DNA of 64,000 nt from a virus. The position numbers and the translations under genes were made by a program. Below, piece after piece: positions 16,799-52,154 of this stretch. The stretch spans positions 39,159 through 103,158 of IMG/VR virus record IMGVR_UViG_3300043395_004689, one strand, 5' to 3'. Position 1 is the first letter of the stretch. Each line of letters opens with the position of its first letter. The notes under the pieces were generated by a model. The model was not told where the DNA came from. It saw only the letters and a list, made by a program, of their open reading frames with translations, and ran no database searches.

Positions 16799-17008
16799 AT
16801 GAGCAAGAAAATATTACGGAAACTTGTGCGGTCCGATGTTGACATGGACAATATTAATTCTTGGCTGCTGGCATTGCATGAAGCAATTGACTCTGAGACC
16901 ATGCTCACTGTCGAAGAACAAGAAGAATTAGAAGCAATAATTTACGGAAACATAAGCCACTATCTAGAAAGGTTTTTTGATTTTCCAGGCTACGGAAATT
17001 ACAACTAA
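16799..17008 (+). CDS. Small acidic unknown protein (69 aa), leaderless
   Basis: No family recognised. A helical protein with an acidic core (LTVEEQEELEAII). There is no Shine-Dalgarno; the ATG coincides with the predicted transcription start of the consensus promoter. A GTG six bases upstream would lie before the transcription start, so it is not used. Confidence 0.65.
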   Translation: MSKKILRKLVRSDVDMDNINSWLLALHEAIDSETMLTVEEQEELEAIIYGNISHYLERFFDFPGYGNYN

Positions 17009-31549: not shown

Positions 31550-31557
31550 CTAAATAT
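31550..31557 (+). promoter_or_regulatory. Putative late promoter, leaderless
   Basis: CTAAATAT with the next ATG seven bases after it and no Shine-Dalgarno. Confidence 0.55.
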
Positions 31558-34492: not shown

Positions 34493-34521
34493 TTGACAGC
34501 AGTACTAATGTAGTGTACAAT
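34493..34521 (+). promoter_or_regulatory. sigma70 promoter giving leaderless deformylase message
   Basis: TTGACA, 17 bases, TACAAT; the deformylase ATG begins seven bases after the -10. The -35 begins right after the dnaJ stop. Confidence 0.82.
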
Positions 34522-34527
34522 AATCTT

Positions 34528-35028
34528 ATGATAGAATTAAATTTGGTTAAAAGCAATGACCCAATACTGACAATGCCCATGCCTGCCGTGGGTGAGGACA
34601 TAGATCTAACTCAATTGTCCAAGGACATGTTTTTGATCATGTGGAGCAATGGTGGTATTGGATTGGCCGCCCCCCAGGTGGGCATGGCCTTGCGTATGTT
34701 TGTCATGGGCAGTCAGCAAGGTCCCAATTATGTCTGTATTAATCCAGAAGTGTTAGAGGTTAGCGATGAACTAGCAACTGGAACCGAAGGATGTTTATCG
34801 TATCCAGCTCTTTGGTTAAATATCAAGCGACCTCAATGGGTCCAAGCACGATATCGTACCTTAGGAGGTGAGTTGATCGAGCAACGATTTGAAGGATTGT
34901 TAGCAAGATGTTATCTGCATGAACTAGATCATTTAAATGGCGTAGTGTTTACTAACCATGCCGGCCAACTTAGTTTAAAAATGGCACTTGCTCGACAAAA
35001 GAAGAAATTATCTAAAGGATCAAAATGA
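34528..35028 (+). CDS. def: Peptide deformylase
   Basis: A 166-residue deformylase with all three motifs: G-I-G-L-A-A-P-Q, E-G-C-L-S, and H-E-L-D-H. It removes the formyl group from new proteins. Short C-terminal extension, like other phage deformylases. The ATG at 34528 coincides with the predicted transcript start and has no Shine-Dalgarno; the upstream GTG is therefore not used. Its stop overlaps the clpA start (ATGA), coupling deformylation with N-degron processing. Confidence 0.95.
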   Translation: MIELNLVKSNDPILTMPMPAVGEDIDLTQLSKDMFLIMWSNGGIGLAAPQVGMALRMFVMGSQQGPNYVCINPEVLEVSDELATGTEGCLSYPALWLNIKRPQWVQARYRTLGGELIEQRFEGLLARCYLHELDHLNGVVFTNHAGQLSLKMALARQKKKLSKGSK

Positions 35029-37241
35029 GTCAGGAAGAAAATAATAACAGTCGTATTAACGAAGTTATTGCTAAGGCTTTTCAAGAAGCACTAAATCGAG
35101 AGCACGAGTATGTTACTCTAGAGCACATACTGCGTGTTATGCTCGACGAAGAAGAAATCAAAGATGCCTTAGGTGAGTTCCAAGTTGATGTGGAGGCCCT
35201 CAAAGAAGAAATTGATCTGTGGCTTCGAGATCAAGAAGATATTCGCGTTGAAGGCATTACCAAACCTCGCAAAACTGCAACCCTAGAGCGTTGCTTTAAC
35301 CGTGCTTACACACAGGCTATCTTTACAGGTCGTGGGCACATGGAACCTTTGGATCTGCTGATCAGCATTGCCAGCGAAAAGAACAGCCATGCCAATTTCT
35401 TCTTGGCTAAAAATGGCGTAACCAAAGAAATTATTATCAATTATGTTGGCAAGCTCAAGGATGGTCGTAGCAAGGAAAGCAAGACTGCCAAGAAGCGCGA
35501 CAACGAAAAAATTCTCAACAAATACACCACAAATTTAAACAAGAGCGCAGAAAAGCAATTAATTGATCCACTGATTGGTCGTGAGCGCGAAGTGTTCCGT
35601 CTTGCACAAACACTTACTCGCAAAAAGAAAAACAATGCCATCATGGTTGGTGAACCTGGTGTAGGTAAGACTGCCATTGTTGAAGGTCTAGCAGTGGCTA
35701 TTGTACGCAATGAAGTTCCTGAGGTACTGAAAAAGAAAACTATCTACAGCCTGGACATGGGCAAGCTTTTGGCTGGCACACGCTATCGAGGTGACTTTGA
35801 AGAGCGTATGCAACATGTTCTCGAAGCACTTGAAGAACGCGATGATGCGATCCTGTTCATTGACGAAATCCACATGATCATGGGTGCAGGTGCTGGCGGA
35901 CAAGGTAGCATGGATGTGGCTAACTTGCTTAAACCCAGCTTAGAAAAGGGCAAGTTGCGTTGCGTTGGTAGCACAACCTATGAAGAGTTCCGTGAGAACT
36001 TTGAAAAGGATCGTGCTCTACTGCGTCGCTTTACCAAAATTGACATTGAAGAGCCCAGCGTTGAAGATACCAAGGCCATGCTACGCAGAGTTGCACCTTT
36101 GTATGCTGCCTATCACAAGTTGGCCATTGACGAAGAAAGCATTGATTTGGCCATTGACTTGTCTATGAAATACATGCTGGACAAGAAGTTGCCCGACAAG
36201 GCCATTGACATCATTGATGCTACTATGGCTAACCTTCGTGTAACCAACTGCCCAGAAGGTCAGTTATTGACCAAAGACGACATTCGCAGAGAAATTAGCG
36301 CATTAACTCGTGTGCCTATTGAACAACTTGGCGAACAAAAGAATGTGGCTGTGGCTGACCTTGAAAGCCGTATGCGTACCAATGTGTTTGGTCAAGATGA
36401 AGCCATTGAACGCCTCATGAACATGGTGTATATTGCCAAGTCTGGACTCAAGGAAATTAATCGTCCAATGGCCAACTTCTTGTTTGTTGGCCCTACCGGT
36501 ACTGGTAAAACAGAACTAGCACAACAGCTGGCACAGGGCCTAGGCATGGAACTGATTCGCTTTGACATGAGCGAATACCAGGAGTCGCACAAAATTGCAT
36601 CGTTGATTGGATCACCTCCGGGCTATGTTGGCTACGGCGAAGGCAAAGCTGGCAGCGGTAAGTTGATCAATGAACTAGAGCGTGTGCCTAACTGTGTGTT
36701 GCTATTTGACGAAATTGAAAAGGCACACCCAGCAGTGATTCAAGTGTTGTTGGGTCTCATGGACAATGGCATTGTTACAGGCAGCGACAACAAACAGGCC
36801 TCAGCAAGAAATGCTTTTGTTATCATGACCAGCAACCTGGGTGCTGTGGATGCAGAAAAACAAATGATTGGCTTTGGTGGTGGCTTCAATGAAAGTGCCA
36901 GCGATGAAGCAGTCAAGCGTTTCTTTGCACCAGAATTCCGTAACAGGCTTGATGCAGTGGTTAAATTCAACAGGCTTGAAAAGGAAGTTATTCAACGCAT
37001 CGCTGATAAGTTTATGCGTCAAATTCGTGATCAATTGGTTGAACAAGGTCAAACCATTGTGTACACAGATGGGGCACTGGCTTGGTTAGCTGAAAATGGC
37101 TTCAGTGACACCATGGGTGCAAGACCCATGAAGCGATTGATCAGCGAAAAGATTAGGTTGCCTATTGCCAAGCGCATTATCAAAGACAACCAAACTGTAC
37201 ATACCGTAGCTGTACATAACAACGAACTGCAAATCACATGA
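35025..37241 (+). CDS. clpA: ClpA-type double-ring AAA+ unfoldase
   Basis: A 738-residue ClpA (E. coli ClpA has 758). The N-terminal domain (residues ~1-145) is the ClpS-binding type; first AAA+ module with GEPGVGKT and [10 protein letters not shown]; second AAA+ module with GPTGTGKT and [12 protein letters not shown]; and a MIGFGGGF loop that matches the ClpP-docking IGL/IGF site. It lacks the ClpB middle coiled coil, so it is ClpA, not ClpB. With ClpS upstream in the genome and ClpX, it would target host or phage proteins to host ClpP. Phage ClpA is rare. Confidence 0.95.
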
Positions 37242-37867
37242 TTGTTCGAGATACGCAAAAGCTTTTTTGGAAACAGTGGCCTATAAAGGTTGTTATTTCC
37301 AGCGAAAGAAATTCTTCAAAATCAAGCAAATCATACTTTTTAGGTCGTGAAGAGCGAGCACAACGCCTGAGAAGCATGGCTGATATTGTCAATGCTGTCA
37401 AGCGAGAGCTACCCAATGCAGGCATTCGCAGAGAAGGTAATGTCAGCGTATTTGTTACCAACGAAACAGAACTTGCTCAACTTGTTGATTTATTTGGCAG
37501 TAGAATCTGTGAAGTTTGGAAGCCAAAAAATGAAACGGCAGCTAAATTGTTATTTGAACATACTGCTGATGTAATCAGAGATCGTCCTTGGTATGGACGA
37601 TTCACAATGCGAGCTAGGGTGTTGTTTACACCGCATTTTAAAACCAATGAAGCATTGAATTTTAAAGCAGCAGTTAACTCTCTAGATGCAGAAAAATGGC
37701 ATGCCGCTGGCTTGCTCAAGGATGTCATCAGTTCTGATGGTCATCTAAAACACGGTGCTTGGGGTCAACCACTGTATCTTTACCTAAGTGACAGCGAAGA
37801 TGCAGCCTTGCTCAAACTGCAATGTGGTACAGTTATCGAACGCTTTGAAAGAATAAGACCTCCTTAA
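37238..37867 (+). CDS. Unknown protein (209 aa)
   Basis: Not recognised. A mixed alpha/beta protein with a basic N-terminal third and RDRPWYGRFTMRARVLF in the middle. ATGA overlap with clpA suggests co-expression. It ends the operon at a terminator that doubles as the next gene's late promoter. Confidence 0.6.
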   Translation: MIVRDTQKLFWKQWPIKVVISSERNSSKSSKSYFLGREERAQRLRSMADIVNAVKRELPNAGIRREGNVSVFVTNETELAQLVDLFGSRICEVWKPKNETAAKLLFEHTADVIRDRPWYGRFTMRARVLFTPHFKTNEALNFKAAVNSLDAEKWHAAGLLKDVISSDGHLKHGAWGQPLYLYLSDSEDAALLKLQCGTVIERFERIRPP

Positions 37868-37888
37868 AAAGCCATTGGTCCAAACCAA

Positions 37889-37920
37889 GCCTCCACGCTA
37901 AATAGTGTTGGAGGCTTTTT
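37889..37920 (+). terminator. Composite terminator / late promoter / ribosome-binding site
   Basis: GCCTCCA pairs with TGGAGGC and is followed by TTTTT. The loop holds CTAAATAG (37898-37905), a late-promoter core. The 3' arm supplies GGAGG, eight bases from the next ATG at 37923. Transcripts from upstream fold the hairpin; transcripts starting in it have a free Shine-Dalgarno. Confidence 0.8.
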
Positions 37921-37922
37921 CT

Positions 37923-38087
37923 ATGGCAAAAATACACGAAGAATTAGTTGTAATCAAAATTAGCTCACTGCACAAGGACGATGAAGCTGTGGCCACAATC
38001 CTCAGCGACGAAACCGTTTCAAACCTAGAAGCAGTTGTACAGCAGTTAGTTGGTGAGGTTGCAATTGTTGAAATTATTAAGGAATAA
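37923..38087 (+). CDS. Small unknown late protein (54 aa)
   Basis: Begins MAKIHEELVVIKIS; strand then acidic helix (LEAVVQQLVGEVAIVEII). It is the first gene of the tail-fibre operon and is controlled by the composite terminator/late-promoter element. No family recognised. Confidence 0.7.
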   Translation: MAKIHEELVVIKISSLHKDDEAVATILSDETVSNLEAVVQQLVGEVAIVEIIKE

Positions 38088-38090
38088 CTC

Positions 38091-38459
38091 ATGAGTATGC
38101 GTAACTCAACCATGCTGGTGGCTAACGGACAGCTGGATCAAGTTGGTCCAGCTACTCGTGCTGACGGATACTACGGTTTTGCAGACGGAATGCATACTGT
38201 TGGTTTTTATCTGAAAAATTTCAAAGGCAAGCTATTCATAGAAGCCAGTATAAGCGACAATCCAGGTGAAAATGACTGGTTTCCTATAGGATTAGGAAAC
38301 GGCACAAGTTTCTTTGATGTTGAAGGTCCTGAAACCAAAATAGAAACATTTAACCTGGTAGGGAACTTTGTTTATCTAAGAGCAAAGATTCAGAGAAGTC
38401 ATTTGGGTCAGCCAGTTTCGGCATTGGGCACCTGCGAACGAGTAGTTCTAAGCCTATAA
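38091..38459 (+). CDS. Putative virion protein (122 aa)
   Basis: Beta-rich, with FYLKNFKGKLFIEASISDNP and FVYLRAKIQRS; looks like a small carbohydrate-binding-like or baseplate/fibre accessory domain. Inference from composition and its place directly ahead of the large fibre gene. AAGGAA precedes the ATG. Confidence 0.6.
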   Translation: MSMRNSTMLVANGQLDQVGPATRADGYYGFADGMHTVGFYLKNFKGKLFIEASISDNPGENDWFPIGLGNGTSFFDVEGPETKIETFNLVGNFVYLRAKIQRSHLGQPVSALGTCERVVLSL

Positions 38460-47425: not shown

Positions 47426-47902
47426 ATGAGATATACGCCTGCGGCCCTGAGGTTATTGGGTTATAACCTCAGAAGTCGGCACTGGAACGACTTTGCCGCA
47501 CATACCATGGAAACATGGTTCAAGTTCAGTGCCGACCATACCTTCAGTGATTTTGCATGGTACTCGACCAAACAACACCGAAACATCATGAATGTCACAC
47601 ACGGCGGTGCCTTGGTCACCTACATGGATTATGCCATGGCTGCTAGTATTTGGGATATCACTGCTGGCGGAAATGCATGGACTGTGTCCTTAAACAATGA
47701 ATTTGTCAAGCCTGCTAGAATCAATCGTTGGCTGTTTGCACAGGTAAAAACTGTGGCTCTAGGAGAACTCATTGAGCTTGAAGGAACTATCAGAGCCAAT
47801 GATCCAGATGGTATGCTCGTAATGCGAAGTTTTGGCAAATTTACTCAGCCTAAACGCATTGACATAGAAAATAATTCTGCTATAATTGCGTATAGAGAAT
47901 AA
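47426..47902 (+). CDS. PaaI-like hotdog acyl-CoA thioesterase
   Basis: A 158-residue hotdog protein with N-V-T-H-G-G-A-L-V-T-Y-M-D-Y-A-M, the PaaI-type active-site region (H-G-G-x..D), and a beta core (WTVSLNNEFVKPARINRWLFAQ). It would hydrolyse acyl-CoA or aryl-CoA thioesters. Phage thioesterases are unusual. A good promoter for the next gene lies inside its 3' end. Confidence 0.82.
   Translation: MRYTPAALRLLGYNLRSRHWNDFAAHTMETWFKFSADHTFSDFAWYSTKQHRNIMNVTHGGALVTYMDYAMAASIWDITAGGNAWTVSLNNEFVKPARINRWLFAQVKTVALGELIELEGTIRANDPDGMLVMRSFGKFTQPKRIDIENNSAIIAYRE
47859..47886 (+). promoter_or_regulatory. Consensus sigma70 promoter
   Basis: TTGACA, 16 bases, TATAAT, inside the thioesterase 3' end. 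Start near 47893, leader ~33 bases with AAGGA before the next ATG. Confidence 0.8.
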
Positions 47903-51023: not shown

Positions 51024-51041
51024 TCTGTTGCCAAACACAAA

Positions 51042-51074
51042 AGCCCTCTGCTAAATAATGCAGAGGGCTTTTTT
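51042..51074 (+). terminator. Composite terminator / late promoter / ribosome-binding site
   Basis: AGCCCTCTGC and GCAGAGGGCT form a perfect 10-bp stem followed by T-run. The 8-base loop and closing base carry CTAAATAA (51051-51058). The 3' arm contains GAGGG, seven bases before the ATG at 51075. Same architecture as the element at 37.9 kb with different stem sequence. Confidence 0.85.
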
Positions 51075-52154
51075 ATGAAAATTAGTGATTTAGATCAGCC
51101 GAGAATTGGCGACATTGTTGAGTTTGAAACTGACCCAGATACTGTGGTCGAGGGCGTCATTGTTGGCGAAACAGAAGACGGATACATCTACGAATTCAGC
51201 GACACTGGCTACACTGAGCTAGTTGAAACATGTACCTATGGCAAGTATTACTGCTCTACAGACAAGAAGTACAAGTGTCGTCAAGGCCCTAAACAAAGTC
51301 GTGATGTAAGCGAAGATGCCGAGCCTATGGATCGTGAATTTGCGCTGGTCAAAAAGCTAGGCAGATTGGGTGAGCGTATTGTGCAAAATCCCAAACTTTG
51401 GGAAAAATATGACGAAGCTATTGCCAACGACAATATTGACTGGATCATTAGTTTAATACAGGACGAAACCGGTGCCACAGCCAGCGAGGTGTCAAAGCTG
51501 GCTGACTTGTTTGGTGAAATCGGCGGCGGCGTGGGACGACTGACAGATTTTGCTTGGGCTGTGAAAGAAGGCCGCTGGGACGAAGATTTCATGAACCCGT
51601 ACAGAGCGCATAGAAGTCAGGGTGTAGCAGAAGCACACCCCAACAGTAAAATCTACGACAAGTGCTGGGATGGTTATAAGAAAGTCCCTGGTAAGAAGCG
51701 CGGCGAAAAGGGTTCGTGCGTTGAAGAATCCAGCGGATATATTCCTCGCAATAGCAAAGAAGCCCAAGACCCTCGCTGGAGTAGTGCATTAACAGGTGAT
51801 GTAACAACACATACCATGCGCGACCAACTTGCTGATTTTTTTCCTTCTGCCGCACCCAGTGATAGACAACAACAAGTCACTGAAGCAGAGTATCAAGGTC
51901 GCGAAGTTCCGTTGGGTCGCCCAATGCGCGGCGATGTTAAGAAATTCAAAGTCTATGTGCGTGACCCAAAATCTGGTAATGTGAAGAAAATTAACTTTGG
52001 ACACGGCGGTTCAAGTGCAAGACGACTTGGTCAAAAGACCATGCGTATCAAAAAAAGTAATCCAGCAAGACGCAGGAACTTTCGTGCAAGACATCGCTGT
52101 AATACTGCCAAAAACAGAATGACAGCAAGATATTGGAGTTGCAGAGCATGGTAA
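51075..52154 (+). CDS. Virion-type protein with basic C-terminus (359 aa)
   Basis: Starts with an SH3-like domain (residues 1-80: EFETDPDTVVEGVIVGETEDG, then CxxC-like TCTYGKYYCSTDKK), a helical middle, a SKIYDKCWDGYKKVPGKKRG segment and a C-terminal basic tail VYVRDPKSGNVKKINFG to FRARHRCNTAKNRMTARYWS. This tail occurs in many T4-like aquatic phage proteins of virion type. Late-controlled by the composite element. Role unknown. Confidence 0.65.
   Translation: MKISDLDQPRIGDIVEFETDPDTVVEGVIVGETEDGYIYEFSDTGYTELVETCTYGKYYCSTDKKYKCRQGPKQSRDVSEDAEPMDREFALVKKLGRLGERIVQNPKLWEKYDEAIANDNIDWIISLIQDETGATASEVSKLADLFGEIGGGVGRLTDFAWAVKEGRWDEDFMNPYRAHRSQGVAEAHPNSKIYDKCWDGYKKVPGKKRGEKGSCVEESSGYIPRNSKEAQDPRWSSALTGDVTTHTMRDQLADFFPSAAPSDRQQQVTEAEYQGREVPLGRPMRGDVKKFKVYVRDPKSGNVKKINFGHGGSSARRLGQKTMRIKKSNPARRRNFRARHRCNTAKNRMTARYWSCRAW

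Follow-up and report, generated by a model that had tools for sequence, protein, structure and literature searches.

We propose that the clpA operon and the following tail operon of a T4-related jumbo phage are separated by a palindrome that probably serves as a three-in-one junction between co-directional operons, combining an intrinsic terminator, a late promoter and a lock on translation. The hairpin, its U-tract, the late promoter motif in the loop, the Shine-Dalgarno (SD) sequence in the 3′ arm, their spacing, their conservation and a gp55 homologue in related phages are all seen in the sequence, and from these features we infer termination, promoter use, start site and translation control.

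Genomic context and anatomy of the element

The window, i.e., the whole 64,000-nucleotide stretch of DNA that was analyzed, belongs to a 103-kb virus fragment of a T4-related jumbo phage of freshwater type. Its clamp loader and the one of Pseudomonas phage PA5oct (Arenbergviridae) share 54% identity, and both phages have the gene order PhoH, virion proteins, DnaJ, ClpA, 122-aa structural protein and tail fibers in common. The 122-aa protein shares 32% identity with a PA5oct protein annotated as ‘structural protein, ESI-MS/MS’. Among named phages no similarity match was found for the junction DNA, and no known Rfam element was matched within the window. Likewise, the 54-aa protein encoded first in the downstream operon has no match in PHROG or Pfam, while its orthologs in the compared genomes are 60–76% identical to the window copy. 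The junction and its surroundings comprise the following features:

31550..31556, + strand: CTAAATA, late-type promoter motif for the virion/chaperone operon upstream; in 7/7 clade genomes it immediately precedes the start codon of the same gene
34493..34521, + strand: sigma70-type promoter TTGACA-17-TACAAT feeding the deformylase, clpA and 209-aa genes; similar TTGAC[T/C]-TAAA[A/C]T in the four relatives compared
35025..37241, + strand: gene of a ClpA-like ATPase in the upstream operon (PHROG 4871, E 3.5e-241)
37238..37867, + strand: 209-aa gene of unknown function, last in the upstream operon, with orthologs at the same place in relatives
37887..37917, + strand: hairpin AAGCCTCCA [CGCTAAATAGTGT] TGGAGGCTT, putative fused terminator and SD-sequestering element, kept in 10/10 loci found via the downstream protein
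37898..37904, + strand: CTAAATA, predicted T4-type late promoter core in the loop, positions -12 to -6, with motif and register as in phage Aeh1
37910..37910, + strand: predicted late +1, the first SD base, inferred from the register -12 to -6 and the 5-nt spacing peak
37910..37914, + strand: SD sequence GGAGG within the 3′ arm, from the sequence
37916..37920, + strand: U-tract (T5) of the putative intrinsic terminator, overlapping both the two final A-T pairs and the spacer from SD to ATG
37923..38087, + strand: gene of the 54-aa protein (MAKIHEEL...), first of the downstream operon, with orthologs in relatives
38091..38459, + strand: gene of the 122-aa virion structural protein homolog (PHROG 13657 and 14467), with the tail fiber genes next

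The original prediction had placed a hairpin at the end of the clpA operon, with CTAAATA in its loop and GGAGG eight bases before the next ATG, and a renewed reading of the coordinates confirmed each of these elements. The intergenic sequence between the stop of the clpA operon at 37867 and the ATG at 37923 is AAGCCTCCACGCTAAATAGTGTTGGAGGCTTTTTCTATG. The stem arms, AAGCCTCCA at 37887–37895 and TGGAGGCTT at 37909–37917, form 9 bp with 5 G-C pairs, in addition to an inner helix, and the eight-base spacer between GGAGG and ATG reads CTTTTTCT. As in intrinsic terminators, a U-rich tract (U5) comes immediately after a GC-rich stem. The 40-nt core RNA folds with -18.8 kcal/mol (z = -5.4), none of 200 shuffles being as stable, and the z-score is -4.3 in a 91-nt context. 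CTAAATA occurs five times in the 64-kb window against 9.2 expected copies, and two of the five lie inside such hairpins.

Assignment of the predicted late promoter

The CTAAATA at 37898–37904 has the form and place of a T4-type late promoter core (TATAAATA or (N)TAAATA, from -13/-12 to -6) and is predicted to act as one. The late promoter of phage Aeh1 takes the same CTAAATA form, starting at -12 (PMC1524935). Upstream of genes, TAAATA is the hexamer with the strongest enrichment in G1, a relative of 285 kb (26 versus 3.1 expected), and it is enriched in the window genome (11 versus 1.3) and in PA5oct (48 versus 15) as well. A late sigma factor of the gp55 family (phrog_234) is encoded by G1 (E 3e-25), PA5oct (4e-18) and a further relative, G9 (2e-26); the window’s own record, a 103-kb fragment, gave no gp55-family match. 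A gp44-like clamp loader is present, and two profiles of the gp45 sliding clamp (phrog_223 and PF02916) found no match in the relatives. The late-promoter assignment of the original prediction is thus supported by the enrichment of the motif upstream of genes and by the gp55 homolog in relatives.

The same motif often lies at a fixed distance from start codons. Across nine clade genomes, TAAATA is located exactly 11 nt before an ATG in 41 cases (1.95 expected) and the variant TAAGTA in 27 cases (1.58 expected), while TAAATA takes this position three times each in PA5oct and T4. At such a distance the A of the ATG coincides with the predicted +1, pointing to leaderless late genes, most of which are predicted in G1 (L232–L246) and G9 (L274–L282). 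Near-leaderless examples in the window are the CTAAATA copies at 17005 (ATG 17018) and 31550 (ATG 31564).

Conservation of hairpin and loop

A search of viral contigs that used the 122-aa protein encoded downstream as its query, independently of the element itself, yielded ten loci. A hairpin with GCTAAATA in its loop is present at all ten, so the conservation of loop and stem in relatives that the original prediction called for is observed. All 11 distinct orthologous elements share GCTAAATA and GGAGG without change, and their adjacent loop bases vary. Base pairing is kept where the stem changes: in L271 an A-T pair replaces G-C at the foot, and above CCUCC the pair occurs as A-U, G-U or G-C. 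In two of the 11 elements the U-tract is reduced to UUU, with hairpin, loop and SD retained. Termination is therefore the least conserved function, and at 37.9 kb it may be weak or dispensable.

Proposed mechanism and its relation to T4 gene e

We envisage a mechanism in three steps. RNA of the clpA operon would fold the GC-rich hairpin, and the adjoining U-tract would stop most polymerases. In RNA that reads through, GGAGG would stay paired with CCUCC, leaving the downstream gene untranslated from such transcripts. Late in infection, a gp55-like sigma factor would bring RNA polymerase to the CTAAATA in the loop, and initiation at 37910 would yield an mRNA that begins with 5′-GGAGGCUUUUUCUAUG and lacks the 5′ arm. 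Consequently, this late RNA would not be terminated there and its ribosome site would be exposed. The downstream tail operon would be read solely from its own late promoter. A late 5′ end near 37911 had been predicted before; T4 geometry likewise gives a late RNA devoid of the 5′ arm, but places its first base at 37910, one position off. The computed probability that the SD is unpaired rises from 0.00 in the long transcript to 0.54 in RNA starting at 37910; the corresponding values are 0.00 and 0.67 for a second element at 51.0 kb, and 0.00 and 0.62 for T4 gene e.

The promoter/SD half of this arrangement is, as judged from its sequence, of the T4 gene e type and hence already known. In T4 gene e the SD is hidden in the long RNA, and RNA from the late promoters is without the 5′ strand of this hairpin, a control that has been established experimentally (PMC3014915, a review that cites McPheeters et al., 1986). 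The gene e hairpin, AATACCTTCTA[TAAATACT]TAGGAGGTATTATG, resembles the 37.9-kb element in carrying TAAATA in the loop and the SD as the 3′ arm, and in losing its 5′ arm in the late RNA. Unlike the element, it has no U-tract and is, by its sequence, no terminator; moreover, it lies within an early transcription unit before the lysis gene, whereas the element marks the boundary between two operons, ahead of tail genes. Early or middle RNA of I-TevI, I-TevII, I-TevIII, segB and Aeh1 mobE similarly contains a hairpin that hides the ribosome binding site and that late RNA escapes (PMC2988022). These are, however, homing-endonuclease genes, where the purpose is to delay the endonuclease or to protect intron splicing, and the I-TevII hairpin, which our hairpin scan recovered too, differs from the 37.9-kb element in having no U-tract. 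The comparison with T4 e and I-TevI made at the outset holds in the sequence and comparative tests. The suggested merger of a putative terminator, promoter and ribosome site is likewise seen in the sequence, but promoter, hairpin and SD are already merged in T4 gene e. The new part would be that, between operons, the same hairpin doubles as an intrinsic terminator, a design repeated in one clade. In the open-access literature searched, no late promoter located within the loop of a terminator was found described.

A translational switch of the gene e type alone is the most serious alternative. The U-tract would then be a U-rich spacer between SD and ATG, and termination would be marginal. Gene e itself has the matching geometry while the U-tract is absent, the two orthologous elements with only UUU fit such a view, and U-less versions exist in relatives (G1 95416, G9 60476). 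On the other hand, in most elements four to six U immediately follow a GC-rich stem, the operon boundary is located there, the syntenic PA5oct junction has a classical terminator, and the SD-bearing terminators of the nine clade genomes constitute a class with strong U-tracts. We consider a purely translational switch unlikely, albeit worth retaining, and keep to the three-in-one junction as the preferred explanation.

The PA5oct junction between clpA and the structural gene illustrates how the same task may be arranged otherwise. Between the same neighbors, it contains a terminator, AAAAATAGCCCCGAACGGGGCTATTTTTTT, then an GATAAATA promoter, SD and ATG. In contrast to the element, terminator and promoter are separate and non-overlapping in a 117-bp intergenic region, and the SD lies outside the terminator stem. 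Elsewhere in PA5oct (NC_071039, 65967–65990), AGGGGGTTAAGTAACTAACCCCCTATTTTTATG is a terminator with the TAAGTA variant in its loop just before an ATG, with no clear SD in the arm. Hairpins that lack a U-tract and whose loop contains or adjoins TAAATA also precede other genes of the clade, at G1 95416 (minus strand), G9 60476 (minus strand), G3 77782 and G5 75432; of these, the ones in G1 and G9 have their SD in the 3′ arm, as in T4 gene e.

Tests against chance and other functions of the loop

The possibility that an ordinary intrinsic terminator has acquired an AT-rich, late-promoter-like loop by chance, with the SD overlap resulting from gene packing, was addressed by a search that disregards the loop. 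It covered nine clade genomes and required an intrinsic terminator whose 3′ arm includes an SD, with an ATG following after 3–14 nt. Of the 14 terminators found, 13 have TAAATA; the remaining one is one of these 13 read on the opposite strand. This search covers the one suggested with the original prediction, namely for the late motif in terminator loops before an ATG in related phages, and its outcome agrees with what was anticipated. In IMG/VR, we counted distinct elements with an ATG in proximity and set raw counts of loop hexamers aside, as these are inflated by single lineages. TAAATA is found in 22 distinct elements with an ATG just downstream, TATTTA in seven and ATAAAT alone in one. 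The TATTTA control yielded 72 ATG-proximal hits, but 65 of them have one spacing and nearly one sequence. Most of the 72 hits correspond to the terminator AGCCCTCCTATTTATTAGAGAGGGCTTTT (e.g., L316–L383), which carries a late-promoter-like TAAATA on the opposite strand.

In a spacing test, the IMG/VR pattern was searched without requiring the 5′ arm. At distinct sites with a perfect 5′ arm, the gap between TAAATA and GGAGG is 4–6 nt in 29 of 32 cases and exactly 5 nt in 17, whereas at armless sites it is mostly scattered, from 0 to 13. A gap of five combined with the late register of -12 to -6 places the +1 on the first base of GGAGG.

Many unrelated phages do have terminators whose 3′ arm GGAGGC can act as the SD of the next ATG, and in 90 of 97 such sites the loop is without TAAATA. 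They share a possible SD role with the element, but mostly miss its loop motif. Within the clade, by contrast, TAAATA is nearly universal in such terminators, the motif is invariant amid varying neighbors, and the preferred 5-nt spacing to the SD accompanies the 5′ arm. A chance AT-rich loop is ruled out by the loop-agnostic search together with the spacing test, and we accordingly give an ordinary terminator very little credence: on these comparative grounds, the 37.9-kb element is not a chance arrangement.

Even less probable is an RNA operator whose conserved loop, GCUAAAUA, is bound by a repressing phage protein, as with gp43 or RegA in T4: the loop is indeed conserved within a conserved stem, and gp43 operators have short conserved loops too (PMC3014915), but TAAATA stands upstream of many hairpin-less genes in the same register to the +1, and in other elements part of it is in the stem, which an RNA-loop binding protein is unlikely to tolerate.

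Some findings outside the orthologous set are noted separately. Three more distant contigs (L408, L437, L489) have a CCTCCT...AGGAGG hairpin with TAAATA in a larger loop, preceding an ATGGC(T/A)AA(G/A) start similar to the 54-aa gene. Cultivated relatives were sought for other element families (L048, L051, L043) with no match. Near matches of the bare element in named phages were rejected as unrelated or devoid of the hairpin; in RB49, the junction uvsY - uvsY.-2 has CTAAATA and an SD, and the stem is absent.

A second element at 51 kb and the timing of upstream transcription

The hairpin scan of the window revealed a second fused element with the design of that at 37.9 kb, i.e., AAAAGCCCTCTGC[TAAATAAT]GCAGAGGGCTTTTTTATG ahead of a gene for a 359-aa protein:

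51039..51072, + strand: second putative fused element AAAAGCCCTCTGC [TAAATAAT] GCAGAGGGCTTTT, with counterparts in G1, G4, G6 and G8
51051..51057, + strand: CTAAATA of the second element, with the predicted +1 at 51063, the first base of the SD GAGGG
51075..52154, + strand: 359-aa gene begun by the second element; its C-terminus matches PHROG 7595, of unknown function

Its fold is the more stable of the two (-23.6 kcal/mol, z = -7.7). Sigma70-type promoters are located upstream of it at 47859 and 49125, and the counterpart in G1 likewise has strong sigma70-type sites upstream. An early-to-late hand-over is for this reason more plausible at the 51-kb element than at 37.9 kb.

At 37.9 kb the supposed succession of early upstream and late downstream transcription is retained in part. 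The operon would be fed by the sigma70-type promoter at 34493–34521, with the deformylase ATG (34528) 6 nt past its -10 box, but the conserved late-type CTAAATA at 31550 lies upstream too, so the RNA reaching the element need not be all early. The operons on either side of the junction may both be active late, and the element probably marks the boundaries of late and early operons alike.

Strong sigma70-type promoters of the form TTGACA-17-TATAAT number 17 in the window genome against about 3 expected, all on the + strand. Many sigma70-type promoters have an ATG 5–6 nt after the -10 box, possibly indicating leaderless early genes too; examples in the window are 34493–34521 (ATG 34528), 16764 and 53773, with many more in L232–L246.

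Implications for late operons of the clade

In summary, our analysis suggests that a single part of ~36 bp can unite a late promoter of the T4 style with a terminator and a lock on translation, PA5oct being a relative that keeps terminator and promoter apart. Such a part would offer a portable design for insulating co-directional operons. TAAATA in a terminator loop, 5 nt before GGAGG, is a candidate marker for the places where late operons begin in uncultivated jumbo phages related to T4. For the clade as a whole, we lean towards the view that the ~36-bp palindrome is a complete operon switch which is used repeatedly, in which a promoter with its +1 at the first SD base would split the terminator in two. 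Combined with the numerous late genes predicted to be leaderless, this would mean that much of late translation in these phages proceeds from leaders of 0 to about 15 nt.
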